Shown here piece by piece: positions 2,626-17,165 of a DNA stretch of 64,000 nt (within the stretch, counting starts at the first letter, position 1; every line of letters starts with the position of its first letter). The notes under the pieces are model-generated. The model searched no databases and was not told the origin of the DNA. It worked only from the letters and a program-made list of their open reading frames with translations. The translations under genes and the position numbers were made by a program. The DNA is taken from NCBI RefSeq assembly GCF_000328305.2, contig NZ_ANPE02000079.1, positions 1 to 64,000 on the forward strand, read 5' to 3'. Source of the stretch: Arthrobacter crystallopoietes BAB-32 (lineage in GTDB: Bacteria > Actinomycetota > Actinomycetes > Actinomycetales > Micrococcaceae).

Positions 2626-3087
2626 GTGGGCAAGACGGTCCTCACATATGGAACATTCGATCTCTTCCACATCGGACATCTGAACATCCTGAAACGTCTT
2701 AGTGCACTCGGTGATCGGCTTATCGTGGGCGTTTCGACTGACGAATTTAACGCAATCAAGGGTAAGAAGCCTGTGGTGCCCTTTGAACAGCGCATCGAGA
2801 TTGTCCGGTCCATCCGCTATGTCGATGAGGCGATTCCCGAAGACCGGTGGGAGCAGAAACGTGAAGACATCGAAAAGTACAGTGTGGATGTTTTTGGGAT
2901 CGGCGAGGACTGGAAAGGGAAGTTCGACGATCTTGGCGACAGGGTCGAAGTTGTTTACCTGCCGAGGACTTCCGGTATTTCCACCACGGAAATGAAGCGT
3001 GTCCTGAGCGCCTTCGACGAACGGCATGTCGAGGAGCTCAAACGGACCCTGGACAGCATCAGCCAGATCGTCAAGGAGCTCAGCTAG
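2626..3087 (+). CDS. tagD: Glycerol-3-phosphate cytidylyltransferase-like protein (TagD family)
   Basis: This 153-residue cytoplasmic nucleotidyltransferase probably makes CDP-glycerol (or a related CDP-polyol) from CTP and glycerol 3-phosphate, the activated donor for teichoic-acid-type polymers. The HxGH motif HIGH is at residues 15-18 inside YGTFDLFHIGH, and the second signature RTSGISTT is at 114-121, both characteristic of TagD/GCT enzymes. It is about 20 residues longer than classic TagD because of a charged C-terminal helix. The start is GTG; no other start gives an intact Rossmann N-terminus. It is the first gene of a plus-strand run with the beta-rich protein and the GT4 enzyme, which supports a wall-polymer role. 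Substrate specificity is inferred. Confidence 0.9.
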   Translation: MGKTVLTYGTFDLFHIGHLNILKRLSALGDRLIVGVSTDEFNAIKGKKPVVPFEQRIEIVRSIRYVDEAIPEDRWEQKREDIEKYSVDVFGIGEDWKGKFDDLGDRVEVVYLPRTSGISTTEMKRVLSAFDERHVEELKRTLDSISQIVKELS

Positions 3088-3149: not shown

Positions 3150-3572
3150 GTGTCCGGCGCCACTTTGATGGCCTATCGCGAGAAAGACTTGGGTATACGG
3201 ATGTCCGGCGATTTCGAATTTGCCAAAGCCCGCATTACCGCAGCAGGGGAGCTGATTCTGACGGGCACAGTCTGCCTGCCGGAAGGCGGGAATGCGGTGT
3301 CGGCGTCGTTCGTCGTCGTTGGCAGGAAAACGCAAATTGAGACAATATTCCCGGCCGAGTGGAGCGAAGGCAGGCAGCCGCTGGAGGTCACTGGGAGGAT
3401 CCCGCTTCAGGCACTGGAACTGGAAGGCGAAACGTTAGCCAATGTCTACTTTGTCAGTGACGGCTCCGATCGGGAGAATCGCGCCAGAGTTGTATGGGAT
3501 CCAGAGGCCGTCCACTGGCTTCCATACCCCACGAAGTTCGGCAACCTCAGCCTGAAAAGGATGGAATCTTGA
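3150..3572 (+). CDS. Small beta-rich protein of the wall-polymer cluster, function unknown
   Basis: About 140 residues, with no signal peptide or membrane segment. The sequence is rich in alternating hydrophobic strands with motifs GELILTGTV, SFVVVGR and a C-terminal PYPTKFGNLSLK. A similar pattern is visible at the C-terminus of the next protein (PFATAHAAMSLK after an LVVGR strand) and in the N-terminal half of the TagF-like protein at 8304, so it looks like a free-standing copy of an accessory beta-sandwich module. GTG 3150 is preferred because GAGGAC lies nine bases upstream; TTG 3114 and ATG 3168 are alternatives. Its stop overlaps the start of the GT4 gene, so the two are translationally coupled. 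No enzymatic residues can be named. Confidence 0.7.
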   Translation: MSGATLMAYREKDLGIRMSGDFEFAKARITAAGELILTGTVCLPEGGNAVSASFVVVGRKTQIETIFPAEWSEGRQPLEVTGRIPLQALELEGETLANVYFVSDGSDRENRARVVWDPEAVHWLPYPTKFGNLSLKRMES

Positions 3573-5419
3573 GCGGTACAGACTCCGTGGCCAGGCCGCT
3601 GCTGCCGGCCATGAAGTATTTCATGGTGTTGTGGGGCATTGCCGACAATTTCGGCGGCATGACCACGATGAGCCTTCACCGTGCGGGTGCTTTTGGCGAA
3701 GCGGGACGGTCGGCCACCGTCGTAACTTTTGATCCCAAACCCAGCTATGAGGCGACCACCAAACGGCTGCGTGTCCAAGGCAAGCTTGCCGAAGACGCGA
3801 AAGTGGTCAACGTCTTCCAGCACTATCGCACTGCCGACGCCGGCAGCGTGGGCGGCCCGGCACCGGTCAAGGTGCCCGAAGACGAAGGGGAACGCGGGCT
3901 GCCGGGAGTAGTGCTGGATCCTGCCGGCAGCATCTTCTCCCGCACCTTTTTGCGTCCGGACGGAACCACCGTAGCGGCCAGGCATTTTTACCGTCCGGAC
4001 GGGTCGGAGTACCTTCGGGATGAGGCGCCGCAAACCACGGCCGGCATCTCCAAGGGGCGCTTTCTGACCCTGGTCGATGAATCTGGTGCTGACGTGGCTC
4101 AGTGGCGGAGGGCCGGGGACTTTTACCGGTTCTGGATGGCGGACCTTGCGGCGGGCCAGCCTGCTGCCTTCATCGTGGACAGTTCATTTGCCAGCTCCGT
4201 CGTCGCACCGTTGGAGCGGCCCAACATCATCAAACTCATGGTGTTGCACAACAGCCACATCTCCGGAGGCGGAAACCCGTTCCTGGGCAAGCTTGCCGCA
4301 GGACAGCGACGCATCCACGAGAACAGCCTTGCCTGGGACGGGCTGGTGTTCCTGACGCACAAACAGCGCCAGGACTACGAGGCACGCTTCGGGACTTCCT
4401 CTAACCTCTTCACGGTCTCAAACCCCAAACCCAGAGCGGCCGCCCTGCCCGATTTTGCATACCGGGTGCCGGGACGCGGCGTCATGGTCTGCCGTCTGGA
4501 GGCCCAGAAGAACGTTCCGCACGCCATCGACGTCATGGCACGGGTCCACCAGGAGCGGCCGGAGGTGACACTGGATATCTATGGAACCGGCTCGTTGCGC
4601 GAGGAATTGCAGGAAAAAATCGACCTGCTCGGTCTCAGGAACGTCGTCCGTCTGCACGGCCACACTCCCAATGCTGCCGACCAGTTCGAGACGGCGCGGT
4701 TCTCTCTGCTGACCAGCCGGAACGAGGGGCAGCCGCTGTCCCTGATGGAAAGTTTGGGACGCGGCTGTCCGCCGATTGCCTACGACATCCGTTACGGACC
4801 CAGCGACGTCATCGAGGATGGAGTCAATGGGTTCCTGGTGCCGGCACAGGACGTCGGAGCCGCCGCCGCACGCACCATCCAAATGTGCGACGACGACGAC
4901 TTGGCGCGCCGGATGGGGGAGGCGGCGTGGGAGCGCAGCGAGCGGTTCTCTGATGAAGCTGTTGTTGCACAGTGGGCCCGGACCATCGAAGGAGCCTGGA
5001 ACCAGCGGACTGATCGACTCGTACTGAACGACCTGGACTTCCGTCTTAGCGAGCTCTTCTACACAGCAGCTGGTGGCTTTGGGCTGGCCGGCGACGTGGT
5101 GTGGAGCCAGCAGTCCGGGCCCCCTGCCGAGAACGTGTTGAAGGCCAATCTGGTCGTCGGACGGCGCTCCGGAGGGGCTCCCGCTTTCTATCCCATGGAA
5201 ATCGTCGGGAAGGGGCCGGGCCTTCTGAGCCTTGAAGCCGAGATGACTGCGGATGACATCGCCAACGGAGTACCTGATGACAATAACGAGCTTGATATTT
5301 TCCTGCAGATCCATGGCAACAATGTCCTGAAATCCGTTCGGATCGGCTTTCCCGGGAAGAGTCCTTCATGGAAACCGTTCGCGACGGCACATGCGGCGAT
5401 GAGCCTGAAGCTCGTTTAG
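3569..5419 (+). CDS. GT4 family glycosyltransferase, TagE-like, with C-terminal beta-rich module
   Basis: This 616-residue GT-B retaining glycosyltransferase resembles poly(glycerol-phosphate) alpha-glucosyltransferase TagE. The catalytic core carries the donor-binding EGQPLSLMESLGRG (from about residue 385), followed by YGPSDVIEDG. After about residue 470 comes a beta-rich tail ending in PFATAHAAMSLK that resembles the preceding small protein. TTG 3569 is chosen because it overlaps the upstream stop (TTGA) and has AAGGA eight bases upstream; the open frame extends to 3494 but lacks a ribosome site there. Its TAG overlaps the TAA of the convergent downstream gene by four bases. Role: probably adds sugars to the polyol-phosphate polymer. 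Confidence 0.85.
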   Translation: MSGTDSVARPLLPAMKYFMVLWGIADNFGGMTTMSLHRAGAFGEAGRSATVVTFDPKPSYEATTKRLRVQGKLAEDAKVVNVFQHYRTADAGSVGGPAPVKVPEDEGERGLPGVVLDPAGSIFSRTFLRPDGTTVAARHFYRPDGSEYLRDEAPQTTAGISKGRFLTLVDESGADVAQWRRAGDFYRFWMADLAAGQPAAFIVDSSFASSVVAPLERPNIIKLMVLHNSHISGGGNPFLGKLAAGQRRIHENSLAWDGLVFLTHKQRQDYEARFGTSSNLFTVSNPKPRAAALPDFAYRVPGRGVMVCRLEAQKNVPHAIDVMARVHQERPEVTLDIYGTGSLREELQEKIDLLGLRNVVRLHGHTPNAADQFETARFSLLTSRNEGQPLSLMESLGRGCPPIAYDIRYGPSDVIEDGVNGFLVPAQDVGAAAARTIQMCDDDDLARRMGEAAWERSERFSDEAVVAQWARTIEGAWNQRTDRLVLNDLDFRLSELFYTAAGGFGLAGDVVWSQQSGPPAENVLKANLVVGRRSGGAPAFYPMEIVGKGPGLLSLEAEMTADDIANGVPDDNNELDIFLQIHGNNVLKSVRIGFPGKSPSWKPFATAHAAMSLKLV

Positions 5420-6624
5420 GTTGGGCGGCTGGCCTCCGCCAAGGCCTTTTCGACCGCGTCGATAAAGCGTCTGGTACTAGCTCCGGGAGCGATGTCACCG
5501 AAGTGCCGGTCGATCAGAGCAAGCTGCTCCTGACCGACCGGTTGCGCCAAGAGCTCGCGCAGTTTGGATGGGACAAGGCGGCTGTCACGAGCGTTCAGCA
5601 AAGGGACGACGGCGGCAATTCCGTTTTCGTCCACGGCGGCGTCGGGTTCCACAGGCCGGGTAACCAGTAGCGGCTTCCTGCGTGGCAGCCAGTCCATGGC
5701 CATGGCGGAAATATCGCAGATGCATATGTCCGCTTCGCCTATGGAAACGCTGAAGTCCGTCCGTGTATCCACATAATGACCCGCGGCAGGGTTCTTTGTC
5801 GCCGCAGCAGCAATCATGGAGGTGATTTGCCGGACAGCCTGGCGGTGTGCCGGCAAGCGCGACCCGCTTCGCGGGTGCGGTCGGAACACCAGACGGAACT
5901 GGCCGCTGGCGAGAATCGACTCGACGAGGGCGGTTCCGTGGGATACCAGTGAACCGTAGGCCATGGCTGGACGGTCCCCTTCCCAAGTTGGCGCATAAAG
6001 GACCGTTGGCCTGGCACCAGGGGCGAAGCCGGTGGCTGTGTCGGTATCGTCAAGTTGCGGCCTGCCGATTTCCACGAGGCTGCCGGGGCGCATGTTCCTG
6101 AGCGCTGTTTCTATCCGTCGGCGGGAAGCTTCACCTGCTATGAAGCAGTAGTCGTAGGCCTTCAACTGGTTGGAGGCCATCGAGACCTTGTCACTCTCGC
6201 CATGGCTGAGGTGGATGTGGACCAGCGACGTCAGCCTAAGGACAGTAAAGTTCGCCTGATTATTGTTGACGTAAAAGACCACGCGGGAGCCGTGGGTTCT
6301 GATGAACTTTTCCACTTGGCCAATGCCTGTGGCCAAATAAACCGGGAGCGGTGAGTCCTCCAGCAAGGCAGCGGCAGTGGAGGGCCGATGGCATAGCACG
6401 GCGACAGGATGCTGTTGTGCGAGCCGTGACATTGGCCCGAACCACTGGCGTACCTGGTACGCGCTGGAAGAATCGTCCGCGAAGTAGATAACGGCGTCGT
6501 ACTCCTGACCCGAAGGCGGCGTGGCCGCCGCCAACTGCCGCCGCACCTTGCGCTCCAGGCGGAGGTTGGATGCGTGGTCGGCGAAGACTTTCAGAGCACG
6601 CCGGATCTGCTCGGTACGCGGCAC
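5416..6624 (-). CDS. CDP-glycerol glycerophosphotransferase family protein (TagB-like, divergent)
   Basis: This 402-residue protein matches the GT-B fold of the TagB/TagF family in VLYAPTWEGDRP and VFRPHPRSG, which are typical of the nucleotide-binding half. The usual HGTP motif is replaced by SHGESDK (near residue 140), and the usual DYSS near the C-terminus reads DISAMAMDWL, so this is a divergent branch whose substrate may not be CDP-glycerol. GTG 6624 is preferred because AGGAG lies seven bases upstream; the open frame runs 11 codons further. It is the only minus-strand gene between two plus-strand blocks of the cluster and shares its stop with the convergent GT4 gene. It likely acts at the cytoplasmic membrane face in polymer priming or extension. 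Confidence 0.8.
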   Translation of the reverse strand: MPRTEQIRRALKVFADHASNLRLERKVRRQLAAATPPSGQEYDAVIYFADDSSSAYQVRQWFGPMSRLAQQHPVAVLCHRPSTAAALLEDSPLPVYLATGIGQVEKFIRTHGSRVVFYVNNNQANFTVLRLTSLVHIHLSHGESDKVSMASNQLKAYDYCFIAGEASRRRIETALRNMRPGSLVEIGRPQLDDTDTATGFAPGARPTVLYAPTWEGDRPAMAYGSLVSHGTALVESILASGQFRLVFRPHPRSGSRLPAHRQAVRQITSMIAAAATKNPAAGHYVDTRTDFSVSIGEADICICDISAMAMDWLPRRKPLLVTRPVEPDAAVDENGIAAVVPLLNARDSRLVPSKLRELLAQPVGQEQLALIDRHFGDIAPGASTRRFIDAVEKALAEASRPT

Positions 6625-6724
6625 GGGGGACTCCTGTCGACGTGGTTTGCGGTGCAATCCAGCTTAACGAATGCCGCGGACGACGTGCTGCTTATGCTTT
6701 TCCTGGTGTGACCTCGGCGGTTGC

Positions 6725-6730
6725 TAGACT
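6725..6730 (+). promoter_or_regulatory. Extended -10 (TGC-TAGACT) for the Stealth-tagF-like operon
   Basis: TAGACT is preceded by TGC, giving an extended -10. A start of transcription near 6737 would leave about 40 bases of leader containing GAGAGGAG before ATG 6778. The region lies between divergent genes, as expected for a promoter. The -35 is not recognisable. Confidence 0.4.
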
Positions 6731-6777
6731 GAGACATCCCTTCACTGCCTTCAGGGGGCCAGCGCAGAGAGGAGCGT

Positions 6778-8307
6778 ATGATCGCAGGATTGAACGGGAG
6801 GATCGCCCGTCGTCTGCCTCAACCGGTCCTCCGGGCAGCGTTCGACCTTCTGGAAAACCGTACATCCGTCCAACGTTCAATATCCGGGCAGCTTGGCAGG
6901 ATCCGCGCCGGCCAGGCTTGGGCGGGTCTGGACCCGTGCTATGTTTCCTTGCGCTCAGGGCGCACCAGTGTCCTTGCTCGGACGGTACACCGTTTTTCGG
7001 CTGTTGAGGCCGCCGCGGAGAATGCTGCGTTTGCTTCCGCGGCGGCCGAGTCCGCAGGTGTTCCATACCGGATCGAAGCGGATGCGCCCCGACACGGCCT
7101 GCGTCTTGTCGCCGCCGCTCAGGACCTTCGTCTCATCGAGCGCGAGCTGACGCGCCAGGGCATCCAGCGGCCGCTCTACATGACCGGCGGAAACGCGGGC
7201 GACGCTATGCTGGTGCGGAACGGATCATCTGACCAGGGAGTGCCGGACGTATTCGAATACCTTGCTGCCGAACGGCTGATCCTGGCAGGTCCGGAGCTTG
7301 CCTGCAGACTCGTGGCTGCCGGAGCAGAACGGACGCACCCCGGCTTGGCTGAAGTTCTCCAACCTGTGGACCTCGTCTATACGTGGGTGGACGGTAGCGA
7401 CCCCGAATGGATGCGGGAACGCGATCGAGCCTGGGCAAGGATCCATCCGGAAGAGGTGAATCCATACGCTGCCAACGCGGAGCGCTACCGGAACCACGAG
7501 GAACTGCGCTACTCGCTGCGTTCAGTCGACTACTTTGCTCCCTGGATCAACCACATTTACCTGGTTACTGCCGGTCAGGTCCCCGGGTGGCTTAATTGTG
7601 CCAACTCCCGGATCACGGTCGTCGACCACCGGGAGATCTTCCCGGCGGATGCCCTGCCAACATTCAATTCCCACGCGATCGAGGCGAGGCTGCATCGCAT
7701 TCCCGGATTGAGCGAGCACTTCCTGTATTTGAACGATGACGTGTTCTTCGGCCGGCATGTTGGACCGGAGCGGTTTTTCCACGGGAACGGGCTGCCGAAG
7801 TTCTTTCAATCCGAGAACCGCATCCCGGCAGGAGAAGTTTCGATCGCGGACCTGCCGGTGGATAGTGCGGCCAAACGGAACAGGCAACTGCTGCAGCACA
7901 AATTCGGCAGGACCGTTGAGTTCAAATTCAAGCACGCGGCACATGCGCAGCGAAGGAGTACCCTGCAACGGATTGAGGAGGAGTTCCCGGCGGAGCATGC
8001 AAACACGACCCATTCGCGTTTCCGGAATCCGCAGGACATTTCCATCCCATCCTCGCTTGCACACTATTACGGCTTTGCCACCGGAGCGGCCGTTGCCGGT
8101 ACGATTTCCTACCGCTTTTGCGACATCTCCGAGCCCGACGCGCTGGTAAAACTGCTGCGGCTGCTTCGCGACAGGAGCGCCGACGTTTTCTGCCTGAACG
8201 AAACGGGGCCATCGGCGCTCGACTGGGAACGGCTGGACAGGATGCTGGAGGACTTTCTCGAGGCATATTTTCCGGTGCCCAGTTCGTTCGAACGTGGATC
8301 TGAATGA
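6778..8307 (+). CDS. Stealth family protein, sugar-1-phosphate (phospho)transferase
   Basis: This 509-residue protein carries the four conserved regions of the Stealth family, which transfers hexose-1-phosphate from nucleotide sugars to build phosphodiester-linked surface glycans. Region 1 is the VDLVYTWVDGSDPEW stretch from about residue 197. Region 2 includes ELRYSLRSVDYFAPW and FLYLNDDVFFG (near 316). Region 3 contains KHAAHAQRRS (near 385), and region 4 is the C-terminal ALDWERLDRMLEDFLEAYFP. About 190 N-terminal residues are outside the conserved core. Start ATG is preceded by GAGAGGAG. Its TGA overlaps the ATG of the TagF-like gene (ATGA), so the two are co-translated and probably act on the same polymer. 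Confidence 0.9.
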   Translation: MIAGLNGRIARRLPQPVLRAAFDLLENRTSVQRSISGQLGRIRAGQAWAGLDPCYVSLRSGRTSVLARTVHRFSAVEAAAENAAFASAAAESAGVPYRIEADAPRHGLRLVAAAQDLRLIERELTRQGIQRPLYMTGGNAGDAMLVRNGSSDQGVPDVFEYLAAERLILAGPELACRLVAAGAERTHPGLAEVLQPVDLVYTWVDGSDPEWMRERDRAWARIHPEEVNPYAANAERYRNHEELRYSLRSVDYFAPWINHIYLVTAGQVPGWLNCANSRITVVDHREIFPADALPTFNSHAIEARLHRIPGLSEHFLYLNDDVFFGRHVGPERFFHGNGLPKFFQSENRIPAGEVSIADLPVDSAAKRNRQLLQHKFGRTVEFKFKHAAHAQRRSTLQRIEEEFPAEHANTTHSRFRNPQDISIPSSLAHYYGFATGAAVAGTISYRFCDISEPDALVKLLRLLRDRSADVFCLNETGPSALDWERLDRMLEDFLEAYFPVPSSFERGSE

Positions 8308-11300
8308 ATACGCCGGCATTTATCTCGAGGGCGAAGATGAAGGCCGGGAGGATGCTGAATCCAGGATCGGGTTCCGTCCGACGGGAGCTGCGCAGGCTTT
8401 CCATAGTGCAGTCTGGCCCACGCGTCAGCATCGGGGTCACGGTCGCCAACAGCTTGACCCCGATCAGTATCTGGGCGCTTGAGGAGAACAACCAGTGGGT
8501 TCATCTGGCCGATTTCGCCCCTGCCGTGCAACAGAAGCACGGTCAGGCTCGTACAGCGGAGGCCGCGTACGAGGCGGATCTTAACCTAGTCGAGCTCGCG
8601 CGGGAACTGCCTCCCCGGGCGGAGGGCGAACAAGGTGCCACGCTGACACTGTTCATCGAGTTCTCAGCCGCCGCAGCGGATGTTCCGTGGTACAGCCGCG
8701 ACATTAGTTGGGGCGCTGCTGTACAAGGGCTGAGCTTCGCGGAGTTCAGGCAGCTGGGCGAAGTTCAGGGGCCGGGTTCCGCGAGCTGCCGGGCAAAGCT
8801 GGGTCTGGGCCGTTTCCTGAGGACCGATACTGGTGCCTTTGAGCCGGTTGAAGCCGAGGAGAACCGAGCCGAGCTGTACATTAGCCGCAGGGGCTTCCTT
8901 ACGCTGGCGATTAACCGAACGCTGAAGCCGTACAACGCCGTATACGTTCACCGCCTTCGGGTAGACGGCGGCGTTGTGGCCTTCACCGGACGGTTGGTGA
9001 CGCGGCACGGCCAGGCCAGCCATGCCGCCCTCGTCTTGCTCGGCCGCGACAGTGGCTGCCGGTTCGTCTCTGCAGCGGACATTAGCCTGAATGAAAAAGC
9101 AACTGCCCGCCGCTTCGGCCTGCGCGAGTACACGTTCCAGACCAGGCTTGACCTCGGGGGCTACTCCGATGATCAGCTGGCCGAAGAAAGCATTTTGGAT
9201 GCCTGGCTCGAGGTCTACAGCGGGGCCGCCGCCGACCCAGTCCGGACCCGGATCGGCAGGACCAAGTATGTCGCGCGTAAGCTGTCTCGTGCTGGCTGGC
9301 AGCAACGTGGCACCAAGACACTACTGCTCACGCCCTATTACACCTTCAAGGCCCAGAAGACCTGCTTCCACCTGGAGCTGCTGGACACGGCGACTTTCAA
9401 CCACCTGAGGCGCCGCACACGAATCCCCCTCCAGCCGCAGCGGTTTCCCGGAAGCAAGCCCGTGTGGCTGGTGGGCGAGCGGCCCTACAAAGCGCAGGAC
9501 ACCGGACTTCACTTCTTCCGGTACTTGCGGACTAAGCATCCGGAGATCGACGCGTACTACGTGATCGACCCGAAGTCGCCTGAACGCCGCAATCTCGACG
9601 GCCTGGGGAACGTGGTCGCATTTGGATCGCGGCACCATTTCGACCTAGCCCTGCGGGCTGAACGCTTTATTGGCTCGCATCATCCCGATTTCCTGTATCC
9701 GACCTGGATGCCGCAGTTCCGGCGCGCGGCTGGAGGCATCAAGGTGTTCCTGCAGCACGGGGTCATGGGGACAAAATGGATGGTTCCAAATTATGGCAAG
9801 AAGGCCCCAGGGTTTGACACAGATCTGTTCATTGTCAGTTCCGAGCGAGAAAAAGAATACATAGTCGACGACTTCGGTTATCCGGCCAAAGATGTCGTCG
9901 TCACAGGGCTTTCCCGGTTCGACGCGCTGTTCGCCGGCGATGTCGAGGTCAAGAAGAACCAGATACTGGTCATACCCACTTGGCGGGACTGGCTATTCCT
10001 CCCGGAGCTGTTTACGGAATCGGAATACTTCCAAACCTGGAGCGGCTTGCTCCACGACGAACGCCTGCGGACGCTTGCGACAGAACACAATGCCGAGATC
10101 GTCTTCTGTCTGCACCCGAACATGCAGCAGTATCGAAGTTACTTCGCCGATGCCCCTGCCCGGGTCATCTCCCAAGGGGAAATCGATGTACAGCACCTGC
10201 TCAAGGAAAGCGCTGTCCTGGTCACGGACTACTCTAGCGTCGGCTTCGACTTCAGTTTCCTTGACAAGCCGGTCCATTACTTCCAATTCGACCGGGAGCG
10301 TTTCCTCGGTCCCAAGGGATCGCATCTGGACCTGGACGCTGAACTGCCCGGTCGCATCTCCTTCAACGCGCAAGCACTGCTGGCCGGCCTCGAACAGACG
10401 CTGGATTCCGGCTGTACCGTGCCGGACGAGTATGTACGGCGTTCCCGCCGGTTCCTTAAGTTCAAGGACCGCAGCAACTCCGCCCGCATCTTTGAAGCGG
10501 TTCGCGACGCGAAACCGGCAACATCAAGGATCCGCAGGATCATCGACCCGGAGCTGGGGGAACGGCTCTTCGGCAAGTATCGGCGCAGCCGGTTCTATTT
10601 CCCTTCTATGCGCCGCTTTTATGCTGCCGCACGCCGCCTGCCCATGGACGAAAACCTGATTGTCTTCGAGAGCGGGCTGGGGAAGCAGTATGCGGACAGC
10701 CCGAGGTACATTTACGAAGAACTGGTCCGGCGGAAGGACCCGCGCCGCAAGGTGTGGGTGTATACCGGAAAACTGCCGGTCAAAGACCCGAATACCAAGG
10801 TAGTCAAGCGGCTTTCGCCTCAGTACTACTGGTATCTTGCCCGCGCCAAGTATTGGGTCAATAACCAGAATTTCCCATACTACATCCGGCGTCGTTCCGA
10901 CGGCATCATGGTCCAAACATGGCACGGCACTCCGTTGAAGCGAATGCTGCATGACCTGAACTCAGTGCACGGCCGGGACGAATGGTATCTGGATCGGGTC
11001 AGCCAGGCGGTGAGGCAATGGAGCGTGCTGCTCTCGCCGAGTCCCTATGCCACAGCGGCTTTCCGCAGTGCCTTCCGGTTCCGCGGCCCGGTTTTGGAAA
11101 CGGGCTATCCGCGCAATGACCCTGTCGCAGGGGAGGGCACAGCCGAGTTGGGCGCCGAAGTGCGGCGCCGACTCGGCATCCCGGAAGATAAGCGCGTGGT
11201 CCTCTATGCCCCGACGTTCCGGGATTCCCAGAGCAGCGGTGCAGGTCGTTTCCATTTCGAAATGCCCTTCGACCTGCAGGCATACCATGAGCGTTTCGGC

Positions 11301-11786
11301 ACCGACACCATGCTGCTGTTGCGTATGCATGTGCTGGTCAGCGACAAGATCGCCATCCCCGACAGTGTCAGGGGATCCGTCATGGACGTATCAGGTTATC
11401 CGGAGATTCAGGAACTGTGCCTTGCCAGCGACGTTCTGGTCACCGACTACTCGTCAGTATTCTTCGACTACGCAATCTTGCGGCGTCCAATCGTCTTCTA
11501 CGCCTATGACCTTGAGCTATACAGGGATACGCTTCGTGGCTTCTACCTGGATTACGGCACCGAATTGCCTGGCCCGGTGGTGGAATCGGAAGCGGACCTC
11601 CACGCAGCGCTGGAAGAGGCTTTGAAACCTGACGTGGTGCGGGAAGGCCGGCTGGCGGAATTTGCCGCGACTTACGCTCCGCACGACGACGGTCATGCGG
11701 CAGCACGGGTTGTGGACGATGTGTTCTTCCCTGCAGGGGATGTCCAGCGCCCCGGACAGGAATCGAACCTGCGACCAAGAGATTAG
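8304..11786 (+). CDS. Tandem CDP-glycerol glycerophosphotransferase-like protein (two TagF domains)
   Basis: This 1160-residue protein has two consecutive TagF-type GT-B domains. The first has LQHGVMGTKW (near residue 483), IPTWRDW and VTDYSSVGFDFSF (near 640). The second has QTWHGTPLKR (near 871), YAPTFRDS and VTDYSSVFFDYA (near 1045). A beta-rich N-terminal region of about 400 residues resembles the small protein at 3150. Two active sites could add two different units or extend processively. The last residues (from about 1148) are encoded by the antisense of tRNA-Arg, ending in GQESNLRPRD, so the natural C-terminus was probably lost or the coding end was remodelled. Start ATG overlaps the Stealth stop. 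Confidence 0.88.
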   Translation: MNTPAFISRAKMKAGRMLNPGSGSVRRELRRLSIVQSGPRVSIGVTVANSLTPISIWALEENNQWVHLADFAPAVQQKHGQARTAEAAYEADLNLVELARELPPRAEGEQGATLTLFIEFSAAAADVPWYSRDISWGAAVQGLSFAEFRQLGEVQGPGSASCRAKLGLGRFLRTDTGAFEPVEAEENRAELYISRRGFLTLAINRTLKPYNAVYVHRLRVDGGVVAFTGRLVTRHGQASHAALVLLGRDSGCRFVSAADISLNEKATARRFGLREYTFQTRLDLGGYSDDQLAEESILDAWLEVYSGAAADPVRTRIGRTKYVARKLSRAGWQQRGTKTLLLTPYYTFKAQKTCFHLELLDTATFNHLRRRTRIPLQPQRFPGSKPVWLVGERPYKAQDTGLHFFRYLRTKHPEIDAYYVIDPKSPERRNLDGLGNVVAFGSRHHFDLALRAERFIGSHHPDFLYPTWMPQFRRAAGGIKVFLQHGVMGTKWMVPNYGKKAPGFDTDLFIVSSEREKEYIVDDFGYPAKDVVVTGLSRFDALFAGDVEVKKNQILVIPTWRDWLFLPELFTESEYFQTWSGLLHDERLRTLATEHNAEIVFCLHPNMQQYRSYFADAPARVISQGEIDVQHLLKESAVLVTDYSSVGFDFSFLDKPVHYFQFDRERFLGPKGSHLDLDAELPGRISFNAQALLAGLEQTLDSGCTVPDEYVRRSRRFLKFKDRSNSARIFEAVRDAKPATSRIRRIIDPELGERLFGKYRRSRFYFPSMRRFYAAARRLPMDENLIVFESGLGKQYADSPRYIYEELVRRKDPRRKVWVYTGKLPVKDPNTKVVKRLSPQYYWYLARAKYWVNNQNFPYYIRRRSDGIMVQTWHGTPLKRMLHDLNSVHGRDEWYLDRVSQAVRQWSVLLSPSPYATAAFRSAFRFRGPVLETGYPRNDPVAGEGTAELGAEVRRRLGIPEDKRVVLYAPTFRDSQSSGAGRFHFEMPFDLQAYHERFGTDTMLLLRMHVLVSDKIAIPDSVRGSVMDVSGYPEIQELCLASDVLVTDYSSVFFDYAILRRPIVFYAYDLELYRDTLRGFYLDYGTELPGPVVESEADLHAALEEALKPDVVREGRLAEFAATYAPHDDGHAAARVVDDVFFPAGDVQRPGQESNLRPRD

Positions 11787-11820
11787 AAGGCTCCTGCTCT
11801 ATCCGCTGAGCTACCGAGGC
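11748..11820 (-). tRNA. tRNA-Arg (anticodon TCT)
   Basis: Read on the minus strand, the 73-nt cloverleaf starts GCCTCGG, pairs with CCGGGGC at the acceptor end, and has anticodon loop CTTCTAA (anticodon TCT) and a GGTTCGATTCC T-arm. No CCA is encoded. The 3' half overlaps the last 39 bases of the TagF-like coding frame on the plus strand. tRNA-Arg 3' ends are common integration sites, and here the 3' end faces the surface-polymer cluster. Confidence 0.96.
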
Positions 11821-11845
11821 TTGGCGGAAACTCCGCCAGTCAGCA

Positions 11846-11851
11846 AGTTTA
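11846..11851 (-). promoter_or_regulatory. -10 element TAAACT for tRNA-Arg
   Basis: On the minus strand CGCTAAACTTG lies 26 bases upstream of the tRNA. The same 11-base string precedes the ileS leader. Between promoter and tRNA is a small hairpin (TGGCGGA/TCCGCCA, 11822-11838), which would lie in the 5' leader removed by RNase P. Confidence 0.45.
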
Positions 11852-12016
11852 GCGTGATCGCCCGACTTTCCGGAAAGTGTTCGGCCCTGCCTCCACAGAG
11901 GCGTCACCGACATGGGTTGTCCACAGAACCGATAGCGGCGGGTCCCTATTGATACGCGAGCCAACAGACTGAAGGTGCCGGCAACACGGCCGGCCCGATA
12001 GAAAGAGGTCTGGAAG

Positions 12017-12598
12017 ATGGCCGAGTACATTACGGTCCGGGGTGTTGTGGGGACGGAAATAGAAACAAGGCTCACGAACGGCGGCACGCAGACGGCGAAC
12101 TTTCGGCTCGCTTCCTCTGAACGGAAGCTCGAAAACGACCAGTGGGTAGACAAATCCACCAATTGGTACCGGGTGGAGGCCTATCGCTATCTGGCCAACA
12201 ACATCACGCACAGCCTCAAGAAGGGCGACCGCGTGATCGTGACCGGCAAGCTGCGGCTTCGCCAGTGGGTGCGCGATGATGGCCACCAGGTCACATCGCC
12301 GGAAATCGACGCCGAGTCCATCGGCCATGATTTGAAGTGGGGTACCGCGAAGTACAGCCGGAATACATCTACGCGGACTTCAGCGGCTCAAAACGCTGCT
12401 CCCGACAACTATCACGAGATGGAGCCCGACGGGAATGGACCCGCACTCCCGGTGACGGCTTTGGAGTATGGGACGCACATGCCCGATGAATACGACAGGG
12501 ACCCCGGAGCGTTTGGCCACGGGGTGAAACGTTCGGGATATGAGGCTGGCGAGGCTGCGGACGTGGAGCGGACGGAACATGAAACAATGACGGCGTGA
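12017..12598 (+). CDS. ssb: Single-stranded DNA-binding protein, second-type paralogue
   Basis: This 193-residue protein has an N-terminal OB fold of about 115 residues beginning MAEYITVRGVVGTEIETR, with NWYRVEAYRYLANN and KKGDRVIVTGKLR as in bacterial SSB. It binds single-stranded DNA in replication or repair. The C-terminal half is low in conservation and ends without the acidic DDDIPF-type tip that recruits partner proteins, so it is likely an accessory SSB and not the essential one. Start ATG has GAAAGAGG eight bases upstream. The next gene starts within its stop codon. An ssb paralogue next to ettA is also found in mycobacteria (Rv2478c next to Rv2477c). Confidence 0.9.
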   Translation: MAEYITVRGVVGTEIETRLTNGGTQTANFRLASSERKLENDQWVDKSTNWYRVEAYRYLANNITHSLKKGDRVIVTGKLRLRQWVRDDGHQVTSPEIDAESIGHDLKWGTAKYSRNTSTRTSAAQNAAPDNYHEMEPDGNGPALPVTALEYGTHMPDEYDRDPGAFGHGVKRSGYEAGEAADVERTEHETMTA

Positions 12599-13089
12599 CT
12601 CCACCCCTTCAAGCCTCAGTGCCCCCACGCCTGGTCCGCCTGATCTGTGTCTTAGCCGTCGGTATTGCTCTGGCCGCGTGCTCACCAGATTCCGGGCAAC
12701 CCGGATCGGATACTACGGGAGCATCCGCCTCCGCTCCGGCACCATCGGTGCAGCCGGAGGCGGATGCTGGCAGGACGATCGCTGAAGCTCCTTCCGCCAT
12801 CGAGGAAACTGAGCGTGAAGTGCGACGTGCGATGGAAAAACTGGCTGCGTCGTCGCCCAGGCCTTCCAGTGAACAAATGGTCAAGGCAATGACCGATGCC
12901 GGTTTGCCGGAGAATGCCGTCGAAGTTTCGGCCGACATTACCCCGACAGGACTGGCGGTCGATGCCATCGAAGCTGCTGCTCCGGTGGAGGACAGTTGCA
13001 TCATCGGCCAGGTCCGTGACGGCGAGGTGGCAATTTCCGTCCTTCCGGTCCTCGATAGCGGGAAGTGCTTCGTCGGCGGAGGCGCTTAG
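12595..13089 (+). CDS. Putative lipoprotein, DUF6993-like
   Basis: The 164-residue product has a signal peptide with a lipobox LAAC (Cys29) after a hydrophobic stretch at residues 13-28, so it should be lipid-anchored on the outer face of the membrane. An Ala/Pro/Ser-rich linker is followed by a compact domain with ADITPTGLAVDAIEAA and a pair of cysteines (SCIIGQVRDG and GKCFVG) that could form a disulfide. The C-terminal part resembles the actinobacterial DUF6993 domain, from memory of the family. GTG overlaps the ssb stop (GTGA), implying translational coupling. Function unknown. Confidence 0.8.
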   Translation: MTPPLQASVPPRLVRLICVLAVGIALAACSPDSGQPGSDTTGASASAPAPSVQPEADAGRTIAEAPSAIEETEREVRRAMEKLAASSPRPSSEQMVKAMTDAGLPENAVEVSADITPTGLAVDAIEAAAPVEDSCIIGQVRDGEVAISVLPVLDSGKCFVGGGA

Positions 13090-13144
13090 GGAAGTCCGGG
13101 CAAATGCGGACGCCGTCGAATATGAGTTCCGGCTACCCAAGCAC

Positions 13145-13150
13145 TAGCCT
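13145..13150 (+). promoter_or_regulatory. -10 element TAGCCT for leaderless ettA transcript
   Basis: TAGCCT ends seven bases before ATG 13158 and no ribosome-binding sequence precedes the ATG, the arrangement expected for a leaderless mRNA in actinobacteria. Confidence 0.5.
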
Positions 13151-13157
13151 TAGGTGC

Positions 13158-14840
13158 ATGGCGGAATTCATTTACACAATGACCAAGGCCCGCAAGGCCG
13201 TTGGTGACAAGGTCATCCTCGATGACGTGAGCATGTCCTTCTATCCTGGTGCCAAGATCGGCGTGGTCGGCCCGAACGGTGCAGGTAAGTCCACCATTCT
13301 GAAGATCATGGCCGGCCTGGATACGCCGTCGAACGGTGAAGCCAGGCTCAGCCCCGGCTACAGTGTCGGCATCCTGCTCCAGGAGCCGCCGCTGAACGAG
13401 GACAAGACCGTCCTGGGCAACGTCCAGGAGGGCGTCGGCGAGATCTACGCCAAAATCCAGCGGTTCAACCAGATCTCGGAAGAGATGGCCAGCCCGGACG
13501 CGGATTACGATGCGCTGCTCGAAGAGATGGGCAAGCTGCAGGAAGCTATTGACGCCGCTGACGCCTGGGATATTGATTCCCAGCTGGAACAGGCGATGGA
13601 TGCACTGCGCTGCCCTCCGGGCGATGCGGATGTCAGCGTTCTCTCCGGTGGCGAACGCCGCCGTGTCGCGCTGTGCAAGCTTCTGCTGCAGAAGCCTGAC
13701 CTGCTGCTGCTCGACGAGCCGACTAACCATCTCGACGCCGAAAGCGTCCTCTGGCTGGAACAGCACCTCAAGAACTACCCCGGGGCTGTCCTCGCAGTAA
13801 CCCACGACCGTTACTTCCTGGACCATGTTGCCGAGTGGATTGCCGAGGTGGACCGCGGCCACCTCTACCCGTATGAGGGCAACTACTCGACCTACCTGGA
13901 AAAGAAGCGTGCGAGGCTGGAAGTCCAAGGCAAGAAGGACGCCAAGCTCGCCAAGCGGCTCACCGAGGAGCTGGACTGGGTCCGCTCCAATGCCAAGGGC
14001 CGGCAGACGAAGTCCAAGGCACGCCTTGCCCGCTATGAGGAAATGGCTGCAGAGGCTGAGCGAACCCGCAAGCTGGATTTCGAAGAGATCCAGATTCCGC
14101 CGGGTCCGCGCCTGGGACAGCTGGTTATTGAGGCCACGGACCTCAGGAAGGGCTTCGATGATCGTCAGCTGATCGACGGGCTTTCTTTTTCACTGCCGCG
14201 CAACGGCATTGTGGGCGTGATCGGTCCCAACGGCGTGGGTAAGTCCACTCTGTTCAAGACGATCGTGGGCATGGAGCCGCTGGATGGCGGAGAGCTGAAG
14301 ATCGGTGATTCCGTCAAGATCTCCTATGTTGACCAGAGCCGGGCCGGGATCGACCCTGAGAAGTCGCTGTGGGAGGTTGTCTCCGGCGGCCACGACTACA
14401 TCCAGGTCGGCCAGGTTGAGATGCCGTCCCGCGCGTACGTTTCAGCCTTCGGGTTCAAGGGCCCGGACCAGCAGAAGAAGGCCGGTGTGCTCTCCGGTGG
14501 TGAGCGGAACCGGCTGAACCTCGCGCTCACCCTGAAGCAGGGTGGAAACCTGCTGCTGCTCGACGAGCCGACGAACGATCTGGACGTGGAAACCCTGTCC
14601 AGCCTGGAGAACGCCCTGCTGGAGTTCCCCGGCTGTGCTGTGGTCATCTCCCACGACCGCTGGTTCCTGGACCGGGTTGCCACCCATATCCTCGCCTACG
14701 AGGGAACCGAGGAAGATCCGGCGAACTGGTACTGGTTCGAAGGAAACTTTGAGGCCTACGAACAGAATAAGATCGAGCGACTGGGCCCGGATGCGGCAAA
14801 GCCCCACCGCGTGACCCACCGCAAGCTGACCCGAGACTGA
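13158..14840 (+). CDS. ettA: Energy-dependent translational throttle protein EttA (ABC-F)
   Basis: This 560-residue ABC-F ATPase binds the ribosomal E site and gates the first elongation steps according to ATP/ADP ratio. Two ATPase domains are visible: Walker A GPNGAGKST (38-46) with LSGGERRRVALCKLL and LLLLDEPTNHLDAES, then GPNGVGKST (about 356-364) with LSGGERNRLNLALTL and LLLLDEPTNDLDVET. The charged linker between them (WVRSNAKGRQTKSKAR) matches the P-site tRNA-interaction motif region. Length matches E. coli EttA (555). ATG 13158 is chosen because MAEFIYTM is the usual N-terminus and it sits seven bases after a -10 box; the open frame continues upstream but without family similarity. A strong terminator follows. 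Confidence 0.96.
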   Translation: MAEFIYTMTKARKAVGDKVILDDVSMSFYPGAKIGVVGPNGAGKSTILKIMAGLDTPSNGEARLSPGYSVGILLQEPPLNEDKTVLGNVQEGVGEIYAKIQRFNQISEEMASPDADYDALLEEMGKLQEAIDAADAWDIDSQLEQAMDALRCPPGDADVSVLSGGERRRVALCKLLLQKPDLLLLDEPTNHLDAESVLWLEQHLKNYPGAVLAVTHDRYFLDHVAEWIAEVDRGHLYPYEGNYSTYLEKKRARLEVQGKKDAKLAKRLTEELDWVRSNAKGRQTKSKARLARYEEMAAEAERTRKLDFEEIQIPPGPRLGQLVIEATDLRKGFDDRQLIDGLSFSLPRNGIVGVIGPNGVGKSTLFKTIVGMEPLDGGELKIGDSVKISYVDQSRAGIDPEKSLWEVVSGGHDYIQVGQVEMPSRAYVSAFGFKGPDQQKKAGVLSGGERNRLNLALTLKQGGNLLLLDEPTNDLDVETLSSLENALLEFPGCAVVISHDRWFLDRVATHILAYEGTEEDPANWYWFEGNFEAYEQNKIERLGPDAAKPHRVTHRKLTRD

Positions 14841-14931: not shown

Positions 14932-15834
14932 CTAGACGTCCACAGCTTCAGTCGGTACGCGCATCATGCCCTCCTGCGCGACCGTTGCGACGAGCTCTCC
15001 GGCCCGGCTGAAGATGCGGCCGACGCCCAGGCCACGGGCGCCCGAGGCGCTGGGCGAGTTCTGGACATACAGCAGCCATTCGTCGGCGCGGAAGGGGCGG
15101 TGCCACCACATCGCGTGGTCAAGGCTGGCGAACTTCATTCCGGGGCTGATCCAGGCCACCCCGTGCCGCCGGAGGATGGGCTCCAGCAGTGTGTAGTCGC
15201 TCGCGTAGGCCAAAGCGGCGCGGTGCAGGTTGAGGTCATCGGGCAGTGGGCCCTTCGCCTTCATCCAGACCGCATTCGTGGGCTCCTTCTCGCCCTCGGC
15301 GCTGAGATACAGCGGACTCTGGACGTGGCGGATGTCGAAGGGGCGCTGGAACGCCCACTGCTGCGCGATCGGGTGGTCGAATTCGCCGAGCAGGTCGGCA
15401 GTGCTTGGCAGGGACTCGGGCTTGGGAATGCCAGCAGGAAATGCTTCCTGATGGTCCAGCCCCGGCGCGGGAGCCTGGAACGAGGCGATCATGGACAAGA
15501 TCGGCACACCGTTCTGGTACGCATGCGTGCGCCGGGCAGAGAAGGACCGTCCGTCCCGCAGCCGCTGCACGCCGAACGTGATCGGTGCAGACGCGTCGCC
15601 GGGCCGCAGGAAATAGCCATGCATGGAATGGATATCGCGGTCATCGGAGACCGTGCGGACTGCGGCCAGAATGGACTGGGCAAGCACCTGGCCCCCGAAG
15701 ACGCGCCCATGCGGCTGCGGCTCGGAGATGCCAACGAAGATCTCCTCATCCGTGTTCGCGCCGTCGGCGTCTGACAATTCGAGCAGCTTCAGCAAGGCTG
15801 CTATCGGATCAACGCGTTGCTCAGAAGCTGTCAT
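14932..15834 (-). CDS. tesB: Acyl-CoA thioesterase II (TesB family)
   Basis: This 300-residue double-hotdog enzyme hydrolyses medium to long acyl-CoA to free acid and CoA in the cytoplasm. GRVFGGQVLAQSILAA and HSMHGYFLRPGD mark the first hotdog; SLDHAMWWHRPFRADEWLLY carries the C-terminal hotdog with the Asp typical of the family. ATG 15834 is chosen because AAGGAG precedes it by six bases; the open frame continues 20 codons upstream without a ribosome site. It is divergent from a second thioesterase gene at 15959 and convergent with ettA. Confidence 0.92.
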   Translation of the reverse strand: MTASEQRVDPIAALLKLLELSDADGANTDEEIFVGISEPQPHGRVFGGQVLAQSILAAVRTVSDDRDIHSMHGYFLRPGDASAPITFGVQRLRDGRSFSARRTHAYQNGVPILSMIASFQAPAPGLDHQEAFPAGIPKPESLPSTADLLGEFDHPIAQQWAFQRPFDIRHVQSPLYLSAEGEKEPTNAVWMKAKGPLPDDLNLHRAALAYASDYTLLEPILRRHGVAWISPGMKFASLDHAMWWHRPFRADEWLLYVQNSPSASGARGLGVGRIFSRAGELVATVAQEGMMRVPTEAVDV

Positions 15835-15958
15835 CAAATCTCCTTGCGGTGTTACCCGGGGGTAATGGGCTGCTATCGAGCCTAGTTTCTCCAACAGGCC
15901 TGCTCAACCGTGCCCTGCGGGTTCGCGCGGGGAAAGAGGTTCTTGAGAGGATGGGGGC

Positions 15959-16489
15959 ATGGTCCCCGCAATGCGTCTCCCGCTCCAGCTTCGCTTCGGC
16001 GATATCGACTCCTACGGCCATGTGAACAACGTGACCTTCTTGAGCCTGCTCGAGACTGCCAGGGTCCGACTGCATAACCAGACTTCGGCTAAGGGCACCA
16101 TAGCCGACGCCGGCGGTCCGGCTTCCGGGGGCGAACTTGCGGATGATGGGCCGGAGGCATCGTTGCGGGTTCTGGCGGGCAGCGGGAACTTCACTTTGGT
16201 CGGACGGCAGGAGATCGAGTACCTGGCACCGCTGCACTACCGCGACGAGCCCGTGTACGTCCACGTGTGGGTGACCGGGGTCGGCCGTTCCAGTTTCGAG
16301 CTGGGCTATTCAGTCACCGAGGAGGACGAATCCACGGTTTACGCGGTCGCGGCCACGACGATGGTCCTTGTCAGCCGGGAGTCGGGCCGGCCGGTGGCAC
16401 TGCCGGAGGCTTACCGCAGTTCGCTGGAACAGCACCTGGGTCCGGAAGTCCCGTTCCGGCGTCGTACTCATCAGGCTGCGGGGGCGTAG
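15959..16489 (+). CDS. 4-hydroxybenzoyl-CoA-type acyl-CoA thioesterase (YbgC/FadM-like)
   Basis: The 176-residue single hotdog protein has the motif RFGDIDSYGHVNNVTFLSLLETAR near the N-terminus, where the Asp and the following His-Val-Asn-Asn are characteristic of the 4HBT subgroup. It likely hydrolyses acyl- or aryl-CoA esters. ATG 15959 has AGAGGA a few bases upstream. It faces away from tesB across about 124 bases that must hold both promoters, and the following gene starts five bases after its stop, suggesting an operon. Exact substrate unknown. Confidence 0.87.
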   Translation: MVPAMRLPLQLRFGDIDSYGHVNNVTFLSLLETARVRLHNQTSAKGTIADAGGPASGGELADDGPEASLRVLAGSGNFTLVGRQEIEYLAPLHYRDEPVYVHVWVTGVGRSSFELGYSVTEEDESTVYAVAATTMVLVSRESGRPVALPEAYRSSLEQHLGPEVPFRRRTHQAAGA

Positions 16490-16493
16490 CGCT

Positions 16494-17165
16494 GTGGGAC
16501 ATCCTGAGCATTTGGTGCTGGCCGATCCGCAGGTCACAGCCGATTTCCGGACCTTTGTCAGCCGGGCGAGGTCGGTCAACGACGGTGCGGTGCACCTGCA
16601 GGCGTGGGACCAGGTGCTGGCAGCCTACGTCTCCATCATGAAGCCGGCCTTTTTGGGGGACGGCACGCCGACGATCCTGGGGCTTCGCACCATGATGCTC
16701 GGAGAGCGGGCGCAGGCCGAACTCACGGTTGCGCTGGGTGCAATGGCGGACCGGCTGGCGCGCATGGGCAGCAATGATGTGCTGTTGCCGGTCCCGCCGA
16801 TGGAAGTGCGCGAGTCATGGACCGGCGTGCTCCCGCCGCGTTCCGGCTGGGTAGCGGAGGGAACCCTGGCTGCGGAGGCCTTGAATGAGGCGGCTGCGGC
16901 GGGGATCAGGGAAATTTCGCAGGCGGTCCCTGCCAATCCCGGCAAGGCAATCGTCGACAATGCCCGGAGTGCGGTATGGGGTCGGGACTTGGAGCTGCCT
17001 GCGGCGGATATTCCGGCCGGAGCTGCCTTCGCTGCCTTTTCGCTGGGATTTCTGGGGGAGGAGCCCGCGGCGGTGTTCCGCAATGGCCGGTGGCTCCGGG
17101 TCAGCACGCCACGCGGCCATGTGCTGGTGCGCCGGGCCGCGTCGCTGCACGAAAGAGCCGGCTAG
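16494..17165 (+). CDS. Conserved hypothetical protein
   Basis: About 223 residues, soluble, Ala-rich, with no recognised domain. Features include [18 protein letters not shown] in the middle and [17 protein letters not shown] at the C-terminus. GTG 16494 is chosen as the first in-frame start after the upstream thioesterase stop, with a G-rich stretch upstream; the frame stays open further inside that gene, where codon content is that of the thioesterase. Position directly behind the thioesterase suggests co-expression. Its TAG overlaps the TAG of the convergent globin gene within a CTAG palindrome at 17162-17165. No function proposed. Confidence 0.75.

Follow-up and report, generated by a model that had tools for sequence, protein, structure and literature searches.

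The window, i.e. the whole stretch of 64,000 nt from Arthrobacter crystallopoietes BAB-32 that was analysed, carries a wall polymer cluster of the teichoic acid type. It comprises, in this order, genes for a TagD-like cytidylyltransferase, a small protein designated S, a TarM-like GT4 glycosyltransferase (G), a small Glyphos_transf protein on the minus strand, a Stealth-type phosphotransferase and TagF (Table 1). The TagD-like protein reaches 156.6 bits with TIGR01518, slightly below the cut-off of 165.4, and its presence suggests that the wall polymer is a poly(glycerol-phosphate). The end of the Stealth gene and the start of tagF overlap at 8304-8307. The closest named relatives with the same GT4 are Arthrobacter mangrovi, A. 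mobilis, A. hankyongi and A. castelli.

Table 1. Genes and domains in and around the wall polymer cluster (window coordinates)
Feature	Position	Strand	Basis or remark
Acyltransferase/SGNH gene	313-2412	minus	
Glycerol-3-phosphate cytidylyltransferase (TagD-like)	2626..3087	+	TIGR01518, E 3e-46
S, free-standing TarS_C1-like (Ig/CBM48-like) domain protein	3168..3572	+	134 aa from ATG 3168
S closing motif W-L-P-Y-P-T-K-F-G-N-L-S-L-K-R	3516..3560	+	S alignment
G, TarM-like GT4 glycosyltransferase with C-terminal TarS_C1-like tail	3569..5419	+	Pfam Glycos_transf_1
N-terminal beta-meander of G, model residues 98-165	3902..4105	+	TarM-aligned region including hub domain
G tail, TarS_C1-like, homologue of S	about 5015..5416	+	profiles
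Small Glyphos_transf protein	5416-6657	minus	
Stealth-type phosphotransferase	6778..8307	+	PF11380, E 8e-46
TagF-type CDP-glycerol glycerophosphotransferase	8304..11786	+	PF04464, E 5e-150; two Glyphos_transf stretches
TarS_C1 (PF18674), N-terminal part of TagF, residues 213-357	8940..9374	+	Pfam, E 1.3e-44

S is a real gene under purifying selection. Its dN/dS is 0.18-0.28 (about 0.2), that of the GT4 0.09-0.14; in the wider pairs, synonymous sites are close to saturation. Alternative starts are ATG 3201 and TTG 3114, the latter yielding the longest frame; the stop codon ends at 3572. Homologues of S were found at eight loci besides the window, and 13 columns are invariant among eight diverged rows. 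Within the closing motif, W, Y, P, T, G, N, S and K do not vary in the 8-row S alignment, and the motif of the Arthrobacter copies (WLPYPTKFGNLSLKR) is nearly invariant. A first scan of the genome contigs with S alone yielded no relatives. Neither Pfam (threshold for S: E up to 1) nor NCBIfam matches S or the GT4 tail, be it as single sequences or as families, and the curated PF18674 model recognizes none of the 21 S and tail rows.

The gene for G most likely starts with TTG 3569, rather than with ATG 3494 or ATG 3611, because the stop codon of S (3570-3572) overlaps a possible start as xTGA there. In the full-length model of G (pLDDT 85), residues 1-461 match TarM, the GT4 wall teichoic acid alpha-GlcNAc transferase (PDB 4x7r), with a Z of 39.8, and 431 residues can be aligned at 26% identity. 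The whole-chain structure search covered residues 1-467, i.e. G up to its tail. The likeness includes the beta-meander, whose region we infer to be a DUF1975-type hub domain. E372, E380, R295 and K300, which represent the EX7E motif and the donor-site R/K, are invariant in the GT4 family (10 rows), and we take them to be equivalent to the catalytic residues of TarM. By its modelled fold, G belongs to the TarM/SdgB/GtfA group, that is, to the GT-B enzymes of family GT4 with a TarM-like hub. In NCBIfam, SdgA and SdgB rank best for G, yet far below their cut-offs. TarM ends where the tail of G begins and has neither a tail nor a known S partner. The tail is modelled as beta-rich, with strands in 471-577, and its last 23 residues have a pLDDT below 50.

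The TagF copy is an ordinary fused TarS_C1 domain: It scores 152 bits against a PF18674 cut-off of 26.3, and a further search gave an E of 7.3e-46. TagF residues 25-208 (window 8376-8927) vary in length among relatives. Pfam does not recognize them, in profile comparisons they resemble neither C1 nor S nor the tail, and they were ruled out as an extra copy of the module (hhalign Prob below 1). No PDB sequence matches the N-terminal part of TagF. At its other end, the tagF reading frame (protein end ...RPGQESNLRPRD) enters an antisense tRNA-Arg gene (window 11747-11820), and relatives can be aligned to residue 1141 of 1160, no further. Next to the tRNA gene, tagF has therefore probably had its 3' end remodelled.

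The sequence-only reading had claimed that S, the C-terminus of the GT4 and the N-terminal part of TagF share one beta-rich module, and the coordinates it gave for the three segments were good (Table 1). S and the GT4 tail are clearly homologous, as judged from three comparisons. A single-pair alignment yielded z = 10.3, which none of 1000 shuffles equalled; the hhalign comparison of the S and tail families gave Prob 99.1, score 110 and E 9e-19; and an HMM built on S only picks up the GT4 tail of the window with an E of 3.7e-8, while the tail HMM picks up S with 2e-4. Compared as a single sequence, the TagF segment gave no signal with either of the other two (z 1.3 and -0.3), a result that was not counted as evidence in either direction. 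Family profiles were compared instead, with S and tail homologues gathered from related genomes and C1 homologues from the TarS_C1 family. S versus C1 yielded Prob 94 and score 50, and the tail versus C1 Prob 77 and score 37. In the controls, column-shuffled profiles had a mean of 11-13 and a maximum of 19, and reversed profiles scored 13. Of 400 real 140-aa segments used as a null set against the C1 profile, two exceeded 19. Both are TarS-type GT2s with a TarS_linker domain and are likely to be true relatives. Above the same value of 19 lie eight of nine single S sequences and six of 17 tails, including that of the window. Since so few single tails pass, the tail-C1 link is carried mainly by the tail profile, whose support is moderate, and by the homology of the tail to S. 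By their profiles, S and the GT4 tail are more distant homologues of TarS_C1 than of each other. A combined S and tail HMM run against all PDB sequences had S. aureus TarS on top, in its C1 region, though with an E of just 0.07. In the same database, nothing significant was obtained with the separate profiles: TarS was best for S (E 0.76) but not for the tail. One tail match, in G454, was dropped; a longer antisense ORF overlaps the one in which it lies, and the latter resembles none of the GT4s.

The sharing of one known domain among the three segments is thus shown by family profile scores above shuffled, reversed and real-segment controls. The two strands described as GxLxLxGxV and A(x)LV(V/L)xGR are in register across all three. 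The closing segment P(Y/F)xT...(S/H)L fared less uniformly: S and the tail share it with good support, and in TagF it takes the same place, at low confidence, only in a forced full-length alignment.

An AlphaFold2 model of S (mean pLDDT 81.6, residues 1-12 below 50) shows a nine-strand Ig sandwich. Foldseek returned no match below E 0.001; its first row was the N-terminal domain of TarK, and the best query TM-scores (0.56-0.57) were those with TarS. In VIA-align, the model matched TarS C1 (350-447) with Z 9.4 over 94 residues at an rmsd of 2.5, RmlT equally with Z 9.4 and the TarL N-domain with Z 7.7. CBM21/CBM48-like starch-binding Ig domains of amylases and PTG lie within 1 Z unit of TarS. 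Since these are tied with TarS, the fold speaks for a CBM48-like Ig sandwich, and it is the sequence profile that indicates the branch. The predicted fold of S is, therefore, an Ig/CBM48-like sandwich that matches TarS C1. Profiles, fold and synteny together support the idea that a common beta-sandwich is used three times in the cluster, once as a free-standing copy.

S is located directly 5' of a tailed GT4 gene in nine loci from two families of the order; L056 represents the other family. In seven of the nine, the S stop and the GT4 start overlap as xTGA. Tailed GT4s without S are found eight times (L025, the second one of L027, and L057-L062). TagF is syntenic with S and the GT4 in most loci, e.g. 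L020-L024 and L056. In a tree that left out the C1 rows and two long rows, all S rows form one clade with moderate support (85/83) instead of grouping each with its own GT4; when these rows are included, weakly supported branches break the clade. The single clade makes S a probable old paralogue of the GT4 tail, kept and inherited with its GT4. On closer reading, S belongs with the adjacent GT4, with which it overlaps and is inherited as a pair, and its link to TagF consists only in the common superfamily.

What such a module can do is known from S. aureus TarS (PDB 5u02, 5tz8). There, C1 and C2 form the trimerisation domain, are CBM-like and have basic grooves leading to the active site, for which polymer binding was proposed (PMC5156392). 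Catalysis itself requires neither C1 nor C2, but their removal lowers processivity; by the authors' measure, intrinsic processivity is about 133 without and 2400 with them (PMC5156392). The docking or glycan-binding role that had been suggested for the module fits these data. S likewise has the Ig/CBM48-like fold, HMM and fold match TarS C1 in register, and the context of a wall polymer glycosyltransferase is common to both. In TarS, however, C1 is attached to a GT2, with C2 after it, whereas in the window it is free-standing or fused to a GT4 without C2, and Pfam's own TarS_C1 model misses both of these copies. The same kind of Ig-like domain is present in RmlT, the Listeria wall teichoic acid rhamnosyltransferase, and in the N-domains of TarK and TarL, but there it is part of larger catalytic enzymes, whereas S is a separate protein.

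S probably serves the TarM-like GT4 as a detached subunit for acceptor binding or oligomerisation. The two would associate through homotypic C1-type contacts of the sort that hold the TarS trimer together, and/or S would hold the chain of a putative polyol phosphate. As a non-catalytic subunit, S would raise affinity and processivity while the transferase adds its presumed sugar to the wall polymer. The many tailed GT4s that occur without S count against such a subunit. Furthermore, the activity of TarM is independent of trimerisation (PMC5156392), so additional oligomerisation may be dispensable. S of the window is net acidic (charge -4.7), unlike the basic TarS grooves, and some of its relatives are basic.

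Alternatively, and in line with the sequence-only reading, S might be a scaffold of the cluster: The C1-type domains of S, the GT4 and TagF would bind each other or the same chain and so couple polymerisation to glycosylation. All three proteins carry a domain of the same superfamily, the synteny includes TagF in most loci, and single S sequences outscore most tails against the TagF-type C1. But S is tied to the GT4 and not to TagF, since wherever it is found it precedes a tailed GT4, mostly with an overlap, and G005, G006 and G007 have a TarS_C1 match but no S or tail match. We regard such a scaffold as unlikely, and docking of TagF and the GT4 on one chain through the module as possible. Less probable still is that S acts as a specificity factor which alters the sugar or the acceptor, instead of clamping the polymer. 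GtfA, a member of the same fold group as G, works with the co-activator GtfB (PMC5156392), and this pair of a TarM-fold GT4 and a partner protein resembles the one proposed for G and S. GtfB, however, is large and has its own extended beta-sheet (DUF1975) domain, through which, and not through a C1-type domain, it contacts GtfA (PMC5156392), whereas S, at about 120 aa, consists of one Ig-like domain. It is very improbable that S merely arose from domain duplication or gene fission and does little by itself, despite its small size, the lack of a catalytic part and its absence beside eight other tailed GT4s, because it is under selection (dN/dS and invariant columns, see above), its place and overlap are conserved and its rows form an old single clade instead of reflecting repeated local fission.

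The subunit reading can be extended. Tentatively, and with somewhat less than even confidence, TarM-type transferases of Arthrobacter relatives could be two-component enzymes that depend on S, a dedicated single-domain subunit, translationally coupled and an old paralogue of the tail, to capture the polymer or to modify it processively; S would then be a cytoplasmic carbohydrate-binding module acting in trans. The TarS_C1 domain and its fusion to teichoic acid enzymes are already known. By contrast, a conserved copy that stands alone and is coupled to an enzyme with a copy of its own appears to be undescribed, and apparently a TarM-type enzyme joined with a TarS-type module has no description either; a literature search for free-standing TarS_C1 or PF18674 found none, which is weak evidence as many journals lie outside its coverage. 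The pair widens the TarS_C1 family to sequences missed by Pfam and links TarM-type catalysis with a TarS-type module. The roles of C1 in oligomerisation, polymer binding and processivity are hard to separate in TarS because C1 is fused to the enzyme. Where a separate module exists beside a module-bearing enzyme, each of these roles can be probed by supplying the module or taking it away. For the contribution of S, the Arthrobacter castelli genome (L027) offers a natural comparison: One of its clusters has two tailed GT4s (6191-8029 and 11511-13307), with S only at the first.

Two further clusters are worth mentioning. At L058, TarS-type GT2s with a TarS_linker (11338-13356 and 15352-16986) are located in one cluster with a tailed TarM-like GT4, so that both S. 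aureus-type decorators occur together there. In the rest of the BAB-32 genome, a search for further copies of the module yielded none except a C1-containing protein on contig C283. This contig (L028) carries a second wall polymer cluster, in which the TarS_C1 protein has a frame of 925 aa and is accompanied by two ORFs, one of 879 aa resembling both TagF and GT4 and one of 808 aa in which GT4 and Stealth similarity are joined.
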